Positions 887 through 5,329 of a stretch of DNA of 7,324 nucleotides are shown here, in pieces. The stretch comes from an uncultured Roseateles sp. Lineage in GTDB: Bacteria; Pseudomonadota; Gammaproteobacteria; Burkholderiales; Burkholderiaceae. Position 1 is the first letter of the stretch. Every line of letters starts with the position of its first letter. The stretch is taken from contig CAMLKW010000220.1 in NCBI GenBank assembly GCA_946480605.1, positions 1-7,324 of the forward strand, written 5' to 3'. The position numbers were made by a program, and so were the translations under genes. Below the pieces are notes generated by a model. That model was not told the DNA's origin and did not search any database. It saw only the letters and a program-made list of their open reading frames with translations.

Positions 887-910
887 AGGGGCGGGCTGCT
901 CAACCGCCCT
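887..910. terminator. Short hairpin between convergent livF and GGDEF genes
   Basis: GGGCGG at 889-894 pairs with CCGCCC at 904-909 around a 9-base loop, immediately after the livF stop and overlapping the last codons of the convergent gene. It has no T-tract on either side, so it is at best a weak or Rho-assisted bidirectional end signal. Confidence 0.25.
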
Positions 911-1427
911 GGCGCAGCGCCAGGTCCTGGCAGGCTGCGTCGGCCAGCTGCCTGCCGTTGCGCCCGGCCTCCGGGAACAGCGCCCTGCCCATGCGCACGC
1001 CCAGGTACAGCCGCTGTCCTTCCACGCCGTAGGCGCCGGTCAGGGTCTGCTGCAGCCGCTGCTCGACCAGGGCCGCCGTTTCCGCTCCCGCGCCGTGCAG
1101 CAGCACCGCGAAGCCCAGCCCGGCGACCTGCACCACCTCGTCCGTGCTGCGCACGCGGTTGCGCAGCCGCAGCCCGGCGGCCTGCAGCAGCTCGTGGTCC
1201 ACCGCCGCGCCCATGCCCGCCGCGGCGTTTGGTGCCACCAGCAGCTCCAGCTCTATCCACAGCAGCGTCATCAGCTCGCAGGAGCGACGGCACAGCGCCA
1301 GGCGGCGCGACATGTGCAGGTCCAGCGACTCCATGGACCCCACCCACGGCAGGCCCGCGTTGCGGGCGCCGCGCTGGACGGCGGACGGTTCGTTGGCGGC
1401 GGTGGTGGCGGTGTGGGAGAGAGACAA
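900..1427 (-). CDS. Degenerate GGDEF-domain protein, probable non-catalytic c-di-GMP receptor
   Basis: A 175-residue soluble protein with one GGDEF-fold domain from about residue 35 to the end and no membrane segment. The active-site motif aligned with VARLGGDEFAVLL reads VVQVAGLGFAVLL, so GGDEF has become AGLGF (residues 102-106, bases 1110-1124). The metal-binding DxD of the first strand is replaced by ELE (59-61), so diguanylate cyclase activity is very unlikely. An RSTD motif (93-96) sits exactly five residues before AGLGF, the spacing of the RxxD inhibitory site that binds c-di-GMP in PleD and WspR. Receptors such as PelD keep this site on a dead domain. I chose TTG at 1427 because GGAG lies 7 bases upstream; the alternative is ATG at 1334 (residue 32), which would still keep the whole domain. 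The gene is divergent from the ECF sigma factor and convergent with livF. The fold is a motif-based assignment; the role is inferred. Confidence 0.72.
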   Translation of the reverse strand: MSLSHTATTAANEPSAVQRGARNAGLPWVGSMESLDLHMSRRLALCRRSCELMTLLWIELELLVAPNAAAGMGAAVDHELLQAAGLRLRNRVRSTDEVVQVAGLGFAVLLHGAGAETAALVEQRLQQTLTGAYGVEGQRLYLGVRMGRALFPEAGRNGRQLADAACQDLALRQGG

Positions 1428-1531: not shown

Positions 1532-1572
1532 TGTAAAACGGGCTGCAGTGCCGCGACCCGACATCGCGCCGC

Positions 1573-1620
1573 AAAAAAACTTTCGTCCGGCGGGTGTCGG
1601 CTCCGGCTGCCGCTAGAGTC
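1573..1620 (+). promoter_or_regulatory. Candidate ECF-type promoter with upstream A-tract for the sigma factor/kinase operon
   Basis: Seven consecutive A residues (1573-1579) followed by CTTTC form the only AT-rich patch in this GC-rich intergenic region and look like an UP element. TGTCGG at 1595-1600 followed 17 bases later by GTC at 1618-1620 resembles ECF promoters, which often pair a TGTC- or GGAAC-type -35 with a GTC-type -10. A start site about 7 bases beyond the GTC would fall at or very near the GTG at 1627, implying a short or absent leader. The call rests on pattern only; autoregulation by the adjacent sigma factor is an inference. Confidence 0.35.
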
Positions 1621-1626
1621 CGGTCG

Positions 1627-2181
1627 GTGCAAGACATCACCCGACTGCTGAGCGCCGCGCAGGCCGGCGACCGCGCCGCCGCCGATCAGGTGGTGGCCCA
1701 GCTGTACGGCGACCTGCGCCGGCTGGCGCGGCGCCACATGCGCAGCGCCGGCGAGCTGACGCTGCTGGACACCACCGCGCTGGTGCACGAGGCCTGGCTG
1801 CGCCTGGCCGGCAGCGGCGGCCAGGCCTTCCCGGACCGGCGCCATTTCCTGGCCTACGCCGCCCGCGCCATGCGCACCGTGGTCATCGACCTGGTGCGAT
1901 CCCGCCTGGCCGAGCGCCACGGCGGCGGCCAGGCACTGCTGACGCTCAATACCGTCATCGCCGAGCAGGCGCCCCAGGGCGACGACCACATCCTGCGCAT
2001 CCACGAGGCGCTGGACGAGCTGGCGCTGCTGGAGCCGCGGCCGGCCCAGGTCGTGGAGATGCGCTACTTCGGCGGCATGCTGGAGCAGGAGATCGCCCAG
2101 GCGCTGGGCGTGACCGAACGCACCGTGCAGCGCGACTGGCAGAAGGCGCGGCTGTTCCTGGCCATGAGCCTGCAGCAATGA
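1627..2181 (+). CDS. ECF-type RNA polymerase sigma factor (Sigma70_ECF/TIGR02999 type), kinase-linked
   Basis: A 184-residue sigma factor. Region 2 spans roughly residues 12-95, with LRRLARRHMR, TALVHEAWLRL and RHFLAYAARAMRTVVIDLVR all typical of the Sigma70_ECF (PF07638) family. Region 4 is about 115-184, with helix-turn-helix EQEIAQALGVTERTVQRDW at 153-171. I chose GTG at 1627 because family members begin just before a DITxLL segment (here QDITRLL) and AGAG lies 8 bases upstream; a GTG at 1594 is in frame but overlaps the candidate promoter. No anti-sigma gene is adjacent. Instead a transmembrane Ser/Thr kinase follows by 18 bases. Where classical ECF factors have acidic DAED in region 2.2, this one has D48-T49-T50-A51, so two of the three acidic residues that contact the beta-prime clamp are missing. 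In the EcfP/PknT system of Vibrio parahaemolyticus, phosphorylation of a threonine in this region restores polymerase binding. A similar mechanism here is inference, and the target genes are unknown. Confidence 0.9.
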   Translation: MQDITRLLSAAQAGDRAAADQVVAQLYGDLRRLARRHMRSAGELTLLDTTALVHEAWLRLAGSGGQAFPDRRHFLAYAARAMRTVVIDLVRSRLAERHGGGQALLTLNTVIAEQAPQGDDHILRIHEALDELALLEPRPAQVVEMRYFGGMLEQEIAQALGVTERTVQRDWQKARLFLAMSLQQ

Positions 2182-2199
2182 CCACGTTTCCTCACGCGC

Positions 2200-4893
2200 A
2201 TGGATGAACAAGAGAAACAACGCTGGCTGGCCCTGAGCCCGCTGCTGGACGAACTGCTGGACCTGGACGAGCCCGCCCGCGAGGCGCGGCTGCAGGCGCT
2301 GGACGCCGACACCGCCCGCCAGCTGCGCGAGCTGCTGGCCCGGGACGCCGAGTTGCAGGCCCAGGGCTTCATGGGGCAGGCGGCGGCCGAGCAGCTGCAG
2401 ATCGCGCCGGGGCCGGCCGAGGCCGAGCTGCCCGACCTCACCGGCCAGTTGCTGGGCCCCTACCGGCTGGAGCGCGAGCTGGGCCAGGGCGGCATGGGCG
2501 CCGTCTGGCTGGCCAGCCGCGCCGACGGCCGCTTCGACGGCCAGGTGGCGGTCAAGTTCCTGAAGGCCGGCGTGTTCGGCAGCGGCGACGCCGGGCGCTT
2601 CGCGCGCGAGGGCCGTATCCTGGCGCGCCTGTCCCACCCGCACATCGCACGCCTGCTGGACGCCGGCGTCTACCAGGAGCTGCAGCCCTACCTGGTGCTG
2701 GAGTACGTGGACGGCCAGCCCATCGACGCCTACTGCCGCGAGCGCGGGCTGGACCTGCAGGCCCGCGTCGCGCTCTTCCTCGACGTGCTGGCCGCCGTGG
2801 CGCATGCCCATGCGCGGCTGATCCTGCACCGCGACCTGAAGCCCAGCAACATCCTCGTCACGCCGGCCGGCGAGGTGAAGCTGCTGGACTTCGGCATCGC
2901 CAAGCTGCTGGACGACGCGGCCGACGGTGGCCCGGCCGCCGACGCCACCGAGCTGACGCGCCGCGCCGGCAACGCCTACACGCCCCAGTACGCCGCGCCC
3001 GAGCAGGTGCAGCAGGCCGACGTGACGACGGCCACCGACGTCTACGCGCTGGGCGTGCTGCTGTTCCAGCTGCTGGGCGGCGGCCACCCGACGGCCGGCG
3101 ACACGCACACCCAGCTGGACCGGCTCAAGGCCATCGTCGAGCTGGTGCCCAGGCGGCTCTCCGAGGCGGCCGCCAGCCAGCCGGACGAGCCCATGGCCCG
3201 TCACGCGCGCGAACTGCGCGGCGACCTGGACACCATCGTCGCCAAGGCGCTGAAGAAGGCCCCGGCCGAGCGCTACGCCAACGCGCAGGCGCTGGCCGAC
3301 GACCTGCGCCGCTGGCAGGCCCACGAGCCCATCGCCGCGCGGCCGGACAGCCGCTGGTATGTGGCGGGGCGCTTCGTGCGCCGGCACCGGTGGGCGGTGG
3401 GGGCGACCAGCCTGGCGGTGCTGGCGCTGGTCGGCCTGACGGTCGTCAGCACGCTGCAGGCCCGCCGCGCCGAGGCCGCAGAGCAGCAGGCCGAACAGCG
3501 GCGCCAGCAATCGGACGAACTGCTGGCCTACATGCTGGGCGACTTTGCCGACAAGCTGCGGCCCATCGGCAAGCTGGAACTGCTGGACAGCATTGGCGGG
3601 CGCGCGCTGGGCTTTCTGCGGGATGCTGCGATTGCGCGACCGCAGGAGCGCCTGAGTCGCGCCAAGGCGCTGACCGTGATCGCCGAGGTGCGCGTGACCC
3701 GCAGCGATCTCGACGGCGCGCTCGAGCCGTTAAACGCTGCCAGGACATTGCTGGCGGGCGACCCGCCGGAGCCGGCCCTGACGGCGTCTTGGCGCAAGGC
3801 CCAGGGCGCCGCCGACTTCTGGCTCGGCCGCATCCTGTTGCGCAAGCGTGACCAGGCGGGCGCGTTGAAGGCCTGGGAGGCGTACCGTGCGGTCAGCCAG
3901 CATTGGCTCGACGCGCTGCCGCAGGACATGGAAGCGATGCTGGAGTTGTCCTACGCCGATACCAACCTCGGCGGCCTGGCGCTCGACAGCGGTCGGCTGG
4001 GTGATGCGGCGCGGGCTTTCGAGGCATCCATCCGCCTGAAGCGCCAGGCACTTCCCCAGTTGCCGGCCGAGCGGCGTGAACAGGCCTTGTCCGACCTGGC
4101 GGGCAGCCTGAGCTGGCTGGGGCAGACGCAGCTGTGGCTCGGTCAGGGCAGTCGCGCGCTGGACACGTTCGACGAGGCCTTGCAGACATTGCTTCCGCTG
4201 AGGCAGGCGCAACCTGCCGACGCGCCCTCTGCCAACCAGGAAGCCATCCTGCGCCGCTGGCGCGGGGAGACCCTGCATGCGCAGGGACGCCATGACGACG
4301 CGCGTGATGAATTGCAGGCGGCGCGGCGGCTGTTCGGCGAGTTGGTGAGCCGAGACCCCTCAAACCACAGCTGGCAGGGCGAGTCCCTCGTCACGCAGTT
4401 GCTGGCGCTGGAAATCAGCCCGCCACGCGAGACCCGCGAACTGCAGACTGCGCTGAACCGGCTGGCGCAGGGGCTCGACCAGTGGGAGCGCTCCGGCAGT
4501 GCTGCCGCCCGTGTTCGTCGCCTGCCTGATCGCGCCCGGTGGGCACGGCTGAACGTCGCCGCGGCAACGGGAGCGGCCCGTGCCGAGGCCTGGGCGCAGC
4601 TTGAGGCTGTGCGCGCCAAGCTGCGTGAAGCGCTGCAGGCACGTCCTGGCGAGTTGCGCCTGGGCCGCGCGCTGGCCCGCATCGGCGACACGCTGCTTCG
4701 AGAGCATGCCCCGGTCGGCGCGATGCAGCAGCATGCCTGCGAACTGGTGCTCAGCGACCTGGCATTGCTTCAGGGCCAGGTCAAGGTGGACTTCCTGGTG
4801 ACGTCCGTCTGGTTGCTCGCGCGCCCTTGCGCGCCTGACGAATCGGGCGACGGTGTGGCAGATGTCCGGGACTGGCTGGGAAGTAGAGGCTGA
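2200..4893 (+). CDS. Transmembrane Ser/Thr protein kinase with TPR-like C-terminal sensor region
   Basis: An 897-residue kinase of the bacterial Hanks type. An N-terminal helical segment (about 1-80) precedes the kinase domain at about 88-375. The motifs are complete: glycine loop LGQGGMGAVW (94-103), ATP-binding Lys119 in VAVK, catalytic HRDLKPSN (210-217), metal-binding DFG (230-232) and APE (266-268). It is therefore an RD kinase and should be active; T253 and T261 are candidate activation-loop sites. One hydrophobic segment (about 398-417) follows RFVRRHR, placing the kinase in the cytoplasm and the rest outside. After it come a charged helix (about 418-440), a MLGDFADKLRPIGKLELLD segment (445-463) often seen ahead of TPRs in such proteins, and helical repeats fitting TPRs (about 582-613, 630-663, 680-713). 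No Shine-Dalgarno is visible before ATG 2200, so translation is probably coupled to the sigma gene. The C-terminal half uses more A/T-ending codons than the kinase half. It likely phosphorylates the upstream sigma factor (inferred from gene order); the signal is unknown. Confidence 0.92.
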   Translation: MDEQEKQRWLALSPLLDELLDLDEPAREARLQALDADTARQLRELLARDAELQAQGFMGQAAAEQLQIAPGPAEAELPDLTGQLLGPYRLERELGQGGMGAVWLASRADGRFDGQVAVKFLKAGVFGSGDAGRFAREGRILARLSHPHIARLLDAGVYQELQPYLVLEYVDGQPIDAYCRERGLDLQARVALFLDVLAAVAHAHARLILHRDLKPSNILVTPAGEVKLLDFGIAKLLDDAADGGPAADATELTRRAGNAYTPQYAAPEQVQQADVTTATDVYALGVLLFQLLGGGHPTAGDTHTQLDRLKAIVELVPRRLSEAAASQPDEPMARHARELRGDLDTIVAKALKKAPAERYANAQALADDLRRWQAHEPIAARPDSRWYVAGRFVRRHRWAVGATSLAVLALVGLTVVSTLQARRAEAAEQQAEQRRQQSDELLAYMLGDFADKLRPIGKLELLDSIGGRALGFLRDAAIARPQERLSRAKALTVIAEVRVTRSDLDGALEPLNAARTLLAGDPPEPALTASWRKAQGAADFWLGRILLRKRDQAGALKAWEAYRAVSQHWLDALPQDMEAMLELSYADTNLGGLALDSGRLGDAARAFEASIRLKRQALPQLPAERREQALSDLAGSLSWLGQTQLWLGQGSRALDTFDEALQTLLPLRQAQPADAPSANQEAILRRWRGETLHAQGRHDDARDELQAARRLFGELVSRDPSNHSWQGESLVTQLLALEISPPRETRELQTALNRLAQGLDQWERSGSAAARVRRLPDRARWARLNVAAATGAARAEAWAQLEAVRAKLREALQARPGELRLGRALARIGDTLLREHAPVGAMQQHACELVLSDLALLQGQVKVDFLVTSVWLLARPCAPDESGDGVADVRDWLGSRG

Positions 4894-4957: not shown

Positions 4958-5329
4958 ATGACCACTACCTACTACGTCAAGGCCAGTCCCGATGGCGCCT
5001 TCGCTGCGTGCGACTACTACGCCGACCCCGAATGCACCCAACCCGTGGCAGACGATGCCCTGAAGGTGCCGGCGTCTGCCAGCGCCTGCGACATTGCCGA
5101 GGCCGATGGTTGCGAGTTGGCCCTTGTTGGAGCCAGCTACAAGACACTGGGCCATGCCCCGGTGATGACAGACTCCAATTTCGCGGCGGCCGTCTCTGGG
5201 GTCGTGAGCATCGGCATGCCCACGACCAAGACCGTGACCAAGGGCGTGGTGCTGATCTTCTCGACCCGTGATACGGTGTCCACGCTTTACGCGAGCGCGG
5301 ATCCCCAGATCACCAACGGCGACGAATAG
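4958..5329 (+). CDS. Small orphan protein downstream of the kinase, function unknown
   Basis: A 123-residue protein beginning MTTTYYVKASPDG and ending ASADPQITNGDE. I do not recognise it with confidence. It has no signal peptide and no membrane segment long enough to span a bilayer. Predicted character is mostly beta-strand with many Thr, Ser, Val and Ala residues. Four cysteines lie in the first half (18, 26, 44, 52), which could bind metal or form disulfides, though none makes a CxxC pair. The C-terminal DPQITN segment is faintly reminiscent of the short DP-EP family (PF08985), which I recall as of unknown function; this is a weak resemblance from memory. It starts 64 bases after the kinase stop, beyond a small hairpin, with no clear Shine-Dalgarno. 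The frame is open throughout with normal codons, and it ends 15 bases before the convergent J-domain gene. It may be the third gene of the sigma/kinase operon, a target of the sigma factor, or unrelated. Confidence 0.7.
   Translation: MTTTYYVKASPDGAFAACDYYADPECTQPVADDALKVPASASACDIAEADGCELALVGASYKTLGHAPVMTDSNFAAAVSGVVSIGMPTTKTVTKGVVLIFSTRDTVSTLYASADPQITNGDE

Follow-up and report, generated by a model that had tools for sequence, protein, structure and literature searches.

The stretch analysed here, 7,324 nucleotides from an uncultured Roseateles sp. (the window), carries genes for an ECF43-like extracytoplasmic function (ECF) sigma factor, a transmembrane Hanks-type Ser/Thr kinase and a DP-EP-like protein. 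With slightly better than even confidence, we read them as a three-gene operon in which the third product is a partner that binds the ectodomain of the kinase. Gene order, co-variation and head exchange show, as far as sequences can, that the tetratricopeptide repeat (TPR) ectodomain and the DP-EP-like gene form one exchangeable sensor cassette. The sigma factor and kinase form one more pair of an already known type; what deserves testing is the cassette, which two unrelated heads have in common.

All three genes are on the forward strand. The sigma factor gene (1627..2181, 184 amino acids) is followed after 18 bases by the kinase gene (2200..4893, 897 amino acids). The third gene, the second half of the cassette, lies at 4958..5329 and encodes a predicted beta-sandwich protein of 123 amino acids. 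A sequence-only reading of this DNA had described a sigma factor gene with a kinase gene 18 bases behind it and no anti-sigma gene on either side. Both open reading frames (ORFs) were confirmed, and there was no anti-sigma factor among the seven window products scanned, the rest of the host genome lying outside the search. The locus drawn in that reading held the pair correctly but stopped at 4893 and so omitted the third gene. It had also asked whether the gene order holds across relatives or whether most of them keep the sigma gene without the kinase. In the nearest sampled genus, 19 of 20 genomes contain a sigma factor orthologue (69-83% identity), each time followed by the kinase gene. The pairing therefore goes beyond chance, and a sigma gene kept mostly without its kinase is not what this genus shows. 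In these 19 genomes the third gene in turn lies behind the kinase ectodomain, with the pieces on separate contigs in one of them (G022).

A wider search gave the same linkage. Among 200 Burkholderiaceae genomes, 19 contained a total of 23 matches to the window ectodomain, and 22 of the 23 have a gene of the third type behind them; the remaining one (L241) ends at a contig end. Twenty-one matches are followed by an open frame ending in DPx1-4N, and one (L237) is followed by a frame ending in SPDPMPIQPGPDE. The background was counted by a slightly different rule, using ORFs of 90-320 amino acids in loci L001-L080 rather than any open frame. A DPx1-4N-type tail occurs in 20 of these 3,072 ORFs, nine of which are the third genes of L001-L009. 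The other 11, out of 3,063 ORFs, are never directly behind a kinase in L010-L080 (0 of 11), and thus the third gene is tied to this ectodomain and not to ECF43-like kinases at large.

The linkage was also followed backward from PF08985, the Pfam family of DP-EP proteins. In the order of genome G954, which is probably Shewanella-like since the protein of locus L206 matches SO1698 of Shewanella oneidensis at 1.9e-19, 18 of 197 genomes had a PF08985 match. Seventeen of these have the gene behind that of a protein of 1,037-1,141 amino acids which resembles the window ectodomain in its C-terminal half, as seen by blastp in 16 (2e-21 to 3e-35) and by tblastn in L187 (9e-32). The one counted as a miss (L222) scored 19 bits, under the PF08985 cut-off, and its upstream gene could not be resolved. 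Elsewhere PF08985 is uncommon. At E 0.01 the order of G002 yielded 1 match in 399 (L186, not over the cut-off) and the class of G221 yielded 3 in 369, of which one passed the cut-off (L187). The PF08985 genes of L186 and L187 are again behind a regulator of this kind. All 11 regulators scanned (six from the order of G954, L187, L186 and three from Burkholderiaceae) contain PF00486 and PF20703, and they are therefore called winged helix-turn-helix (wHTH)-nSTAND1-TPR membrane regulators here. Like the window kinase, they have a homologous ectodomain after a membrane segment and a DP-EP-like gene behind. In place of the kinase and sigma factor of the window, they have an output head with DNA-binding and STAND NTPase parts in one protein. 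Since the linkage holds in 22 of 23 cases forward and in 17 of 18 backward, one sensor cassette serves two unrelated outputs. In open-licence PMC literature, as far as its searchable text goes, no such cassette on two unrelated heads was found. In L186, the DP-EP gene and regulator are followed by two look-alike genes (7252-8061 and 8119-8847; 269 and 242 amino acids) without a Pfam match.

Pairwise distances of the ectodomain and of the third protein are strongly correlated across 27 kinase-headed systems (r 0.889). For the same systems, r was 0.481 between sigma factor and third protein and 0.502 between kinase domain and third protein; in the 19 genus systems the three values were 0.906, 0.251 and 0.286, respectively. 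When the kinase domain was accounted for, the partial r of ectodomain and third protein was still 0.849 (27 systems) and 0.907 (19 systems), with p 0.0002, the floor for 4,000 permutations. When the ectodomain was accounted for, the partial r of sigma factor and third protein was 0.148 and -0.377. Along the kinase, blocks of 40 residues gave r of -0.04 to 0.31 with the third protein up to residue 440 and 0.57 to 0.88 for residues 441-880, and mean identity was 67-91% for residues 81-440 and 25-63% beyond. The J-domain-like gene downstream, used as a control, had 85% mean identity and r 0.097 (19 systems). The block correlations and identities together with this control mark out a variable island that starts at the membrane segment, ends with the third gene and lies between constant flanks, and the control rules out the hitchhiking of a longer segment. 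The third proteins of L005-L008 are only 16-21% identical to that of the window, so the alignment there is unsure.

In a tree of 58 ectodomains (27 with kinase heads and 31 with wHTH-nSTAND1 heads) the head changed five times, at least four times by starred branches. Forcing the kinase heads into one clade cost 225 log-likelihood units and was rejected (p-AU 7e-51). The tree was made by a quick search, and the kinase groups L005-L008 and L157-L161 are on long branches. Across head types (135 pairs), the distances of ectodomain and third protein were correlated with r 0.796. Compared with the third protein of the window, five from wHTH-headed systems show 44-53% identity and four chosen from kinase-headed systems show 26-35%; its nearest relatives with its own head are 45-68% identical.

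The third protein has 33 related proteins in its family, itself included. Its structural model is a beta-sandwich with a predicted local distance difference test (pLDDT) score of 90.8, and the best fold match is SO1698 (DP-EP, DUF1888), so that the model has the fold expected of the DP-EP family. Like SO1698, the protein has a C-terminal SxDPQ signature (S113-x-D115-P116, with the Asp-Pro codons at 5300-5305 of the forward strand), and D115-P116 is invariant in both alignments, A1 (33 rows) and A2 (20 rows). It is 18% identical to SO1698 and had no PF08985 match in the Pfam scan; because of this we call it DP-EP-like. A bridge to the family is the third protein of a relative in G017, which passes PF08985 with 28.6-29.2 bits (cut-off 25). 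Among 10 third proteins scanned, one was over the cut-off, one was under it and eight had no match. The A2 profile had no match among PDB sequences up to E 10. Lys98 and Asp37 of SO1698 presumably have roles in self-cleavage. The place of K98 is an invariant Lys (K95) in the 33-row set, third proteins farther from the window's have Arg, Val or Glu there, and the place of D37, judged by eye, is not conserved across the family. Self-cleavage of the window protein is putative. PixA and MakD were weaker fold matches, and their Z values are of the size that beta-sandwich proteins commonly give. Neither of them showed a sequence link to the window protein, and the toxin-operon context of MakD was not seen in the window. 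In the open-licence PMC literature as searched, in excerpts, SO1698/DP-EP appears only as a cleavage tool. One locus (L213 of G987) has two tandem DP-EP genes behind one regulator, and the second has, by eye, a Sec-like leader, unlike the others seen.

The kinase domain (residues 88-367; 2461..3300, forward strand) matches PF00069, and H210-R211-D212, a DFG motif at 230-232 and an APE-type motif after it can be read from the sequence. Residues 399-417 (3394..3450, forward strand) are the strongest hydrophobic stretch of the protein and form the predicted membrane segment. Here the constant head gives way to the variable cassette, and the co-variation switches between blocks 401-440 and 441-480. 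The ectodomain, the first half of the cassette, comprises residues 441-897 (3520..4890, forward strand). TPR matches in the profile scan were weak. The AlphaFold2 model of residues 391-897 is helical throughout (mean pLDDT 92.5), TPR superhelix proteins, LGN and OGT among them, come first in its Foldseek list, and the region is homologous to the C-terminal half of the wHTH-nSTAND1 regulators. An RD-type kinase with one membrane segment and a TPR-like outer half, as the sequence-only reading had it, is therefore supported by motifs, hydrophobicity and model. Among PDB sequences the kinase matches 9eed best, a kinase domain of 364 amino acids (E 3.4e-50), which fits the published structure of PknS 1-364.

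The sigma factor matched TIGR02999 with 186 bits (cut-off 126.15) and PF07638 with 145.7 bits (cut-off 21.1). It is likely to be ECF43-like, an assignment made via TIGR02999, which is possibly wider than the ECF43 group; it had no match among PDB sequences. Its region 2.2 motif is D48-T49-T50-A51. By its place in the motif, T50 (codon 1774-1776, forward strand) is the probable phospho-Thr, since a Thr occupies the published phospho-position. The linker motif TLNT holds T106 (1942-1944, forward strand, also assigned by motif place) and T109. For comparison we used 81 sigma factors, that of the window and those of the 80 top-ranking loci out of 532 relatives, which makes the sample biased. A kinase match lies at most 700 bases behind the sigma gene in 62, near it in 12 and nowhere near in six, and one locus had no room. 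No acid was found at the phospho-place or the next place in any of the 81. The phospho-place is Thr in 52 of the 62 sigma factors with an adjacent kinase and acidic in none, and the first place of the motif is acidic in 43 of the 62.

ECF43 has been described as a class in which the sigma factor is activated by an adjacent Hanks kinase, with EcfP/PknT and EcfK/PknS as examples (PMC13147305, PMC8999054). These sigma factors carry a Thr at the phospho-place of region 2.2, its neighbours are uncharged in the consensus QTTA, and PknS has a TPR-rich periplasmic part (PMC13147305). T50 and A51 of the window sigma factor agree with this consensus, and D48 is an acid where the consensus has Q. As in the window, EcfK of Xanthomonas citri adjoins a transmembrane Hanks kinase, has a Thr at the region 2.2 site and has Ser/Thr in its linker, but its motif is QATE and not DTTA. 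PknS serves a type VI secretion system cluster, and none was seen in this window. A DP-EP partner is not mentioned for EcfK/PknS in the available portion of PMC13147305. EcfP of Vibrio parahaemolyticus, too, is a sigma factor without an anti-sigma, with an adjacent kinase and a Thr at the same place; its motif is STTA and has no acid, whereas the window sigma factor keeps D48. Polymyxin is the stimulus of EcfP/PknT. For two ECF43 kinases the stimuli given are polymyxin and amoebae, and the available text of these papers does not give a molecular ligand (PMC13147305, PMC8999054). The assignment to the EcfP/PknT kind made in the sequence-only reading is thus supported by the Thr, by 9eed and by the 19/19 coupling. 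As a novelty, the pairing is ruled out by the published class, and an extracytoplasmic TPR sensor is not a new trait either, given the periplasmic domain of PknS (PMC13147305).

A probable promoter lies upstream of the sigma gene. AACG and CCGACA are exactly 17 nucleotides apart in 19 of 20 aligned loci (except for L009); in the window the element AACG-N17-CCGACA(T) is at 1537..1564 of the forward strand and is the only match, against 0.01 expected. We infer that it is an ECF-type promoter used by this sigma factor. Just before the start codon is TAGAGT (1614..1619, forward strand, 7 nucleotides before the start), which might be the -10 of a leaderless basal promoter or a translation signal. 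TAGAGT or TACAGT is found 6-7 nucleotides before the start in 19 of the 20 loci, the window included and again except for L009, and because this spacing is kept we preferred the start at 1627 over a longer one at 1594. Across 20 genomes the exact longer promoter motif was matched 21 times, with 16 matches falling at this operon, and the backward control had three. Without mismatches allowed, five of the 21 matches are away from the operon against three in the control, and a wide regulon was rejected on this count. Matches away from the operon were seen before a receiver-domain-like gene (L250, L254) and beside a helix-turn-helix-like gene (L253, L260), not clearly above the control. A single further match (L266 of G009) is 425 nucleotides before a gene whose product contains GDPHVNIDG, a stretch that we take to be reminiscent of DUF1521-type metal-induced self-cutting proteins.

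By analogy with the published pairs, the membrane kinase probably switches on its own sigma factor. As in EcfP and EcfK, it would phosphorylate the sigma factor, with T50 as the most likely site and the linker residues T106 or T109 as possible additional ones. The extra charge would allow the sigma factor to bind RNA polymerase, and from the AACG-N17-CCGACAT element it would then transcribe its own operon at the least. The DP-EP-like protein would most likely bind the TPR ectodomain, as an activating ligand or as an inhibitor, so that its state, possibly cut or uncut at the Asp-Pro bond, sets the activity of the kinase. Several observations weigh against parts of this picture. The phospho-place is also Thr in the 12 sigma factors with a kinase near, in the one without room and in the six without a kinase, so this residue cannot separate the kinase-linked from the kinase-less set, and D48 leaves one acid in the motif, a weak point for activation by a kinase. 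It is unlikely, but conceivable, that the kinase does not act through T50 and has another target or uses other sites on the sigma factor. The acid at the first place, shared with the 43 adjacent systems above, would suit this, as would the one to nine sigma matches per genus genome, which make cross-talk possible, and EcfK T51A, which remains functional with linker sites involved (PMC13147305). The coupling in all 19 genus genomes, the prevalence of Thr and absence of acid at the site in adjacent systems and the two worked examples published (PMC13147305, PMC8999054) argue for T50.

The role of the DP-EP-like protein meets objections of its own. No convincing leader was found by a crude rule in the third proteins examined (33 and 27 proteins; leaders of those from the order of G954 were judged apart, by eye), and the ectodomain is expected to be outside. 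The comparison of the window family with other DP-EP proteins by hhalign reached only 57.7%, and as not all members of the family retain the residues found at K98 and D37, cutting is perhaps lost in many of them. In L066, where the sigma gene is followed by a weak relative of the ectodomain (26%, E 5e-12), no ORF with a DP tail was found behind it. Moreover, adjacent DNA can be exchanged jointly without protein contact. Recombination might simply swap the DNA that begins at the membrane segment as one block, without the two proteins ever meeting; they are indeed encoded side by side, and the correlation rises toward the third gene, from 0.57-0.61 just past the membrane segment to 0.77-0.88 from residue 601. 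We consider this the least probable account, because the pairing holds across distant groups and two head types (17/18, 22/23) and the next gene on the other side, the J-domain-like control, is outside the block. A better candidate, though still an improbable one, is that the DP-EP-like protein is the product of the operon and not its signal, the ectodomain monitoring its amount, export or folding as feedback. It is in the same operon, and the operon's own promoter is the only clearly enriched site. PixA, one of the weaker fold matches, is an accessory or abundant protein. The other one, MakD, is described in the same way (PMC11484084). A mere product need not co-vary so tightly with the ectodomain, nor stay behind two unrelated regulators; a monitored product could also co-vary, and here this account overlaps with that of a partner or ligand. 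We infer from the linkage and co-variation that the third protein is the partner or ligand of the ectodomain. More speculatively, and with no greater confidence than we give to the monitored product, the cassette might be a polymorphic receptor-ligand module, with lineage-specific pairs of ectodomain and DP-EP-like protein on either output. The protein, or a tail freed at the Asp-Pro bond, would then be an activating ligand, for example from lysing or stressed kin, and would report kin or damage.

The other window products scanned are a LivF/UrtE-like ATPase, a degenerate GGDEF protein, the J-domain-like protein and an H+-pyrophosphatase. The GGDEF-like gene (900-1427, reverse strand; PF00990 36.2 bits, under the TIGR00254 cut-off) is divergent from the sigma gene, and a match to it (35-56% identity) is upstream of the sigma gene in 19 of 19 genus loci examined.

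The cassette gives a first handle on what ECF43-type receptor kinases sense. It joins two questions, the ligand of the kinase and the role of DP-EP proteins, at one ectodomain, and the second, unrelated output head is an independent witness. The receptor-ligand module, if true, would supply a molecular ligand for an ECF43-type kinase and a function for DP-EP proteins. The joining of the two questions in itself makes sensing by such receptor kinases testable with three genes and a reporter.

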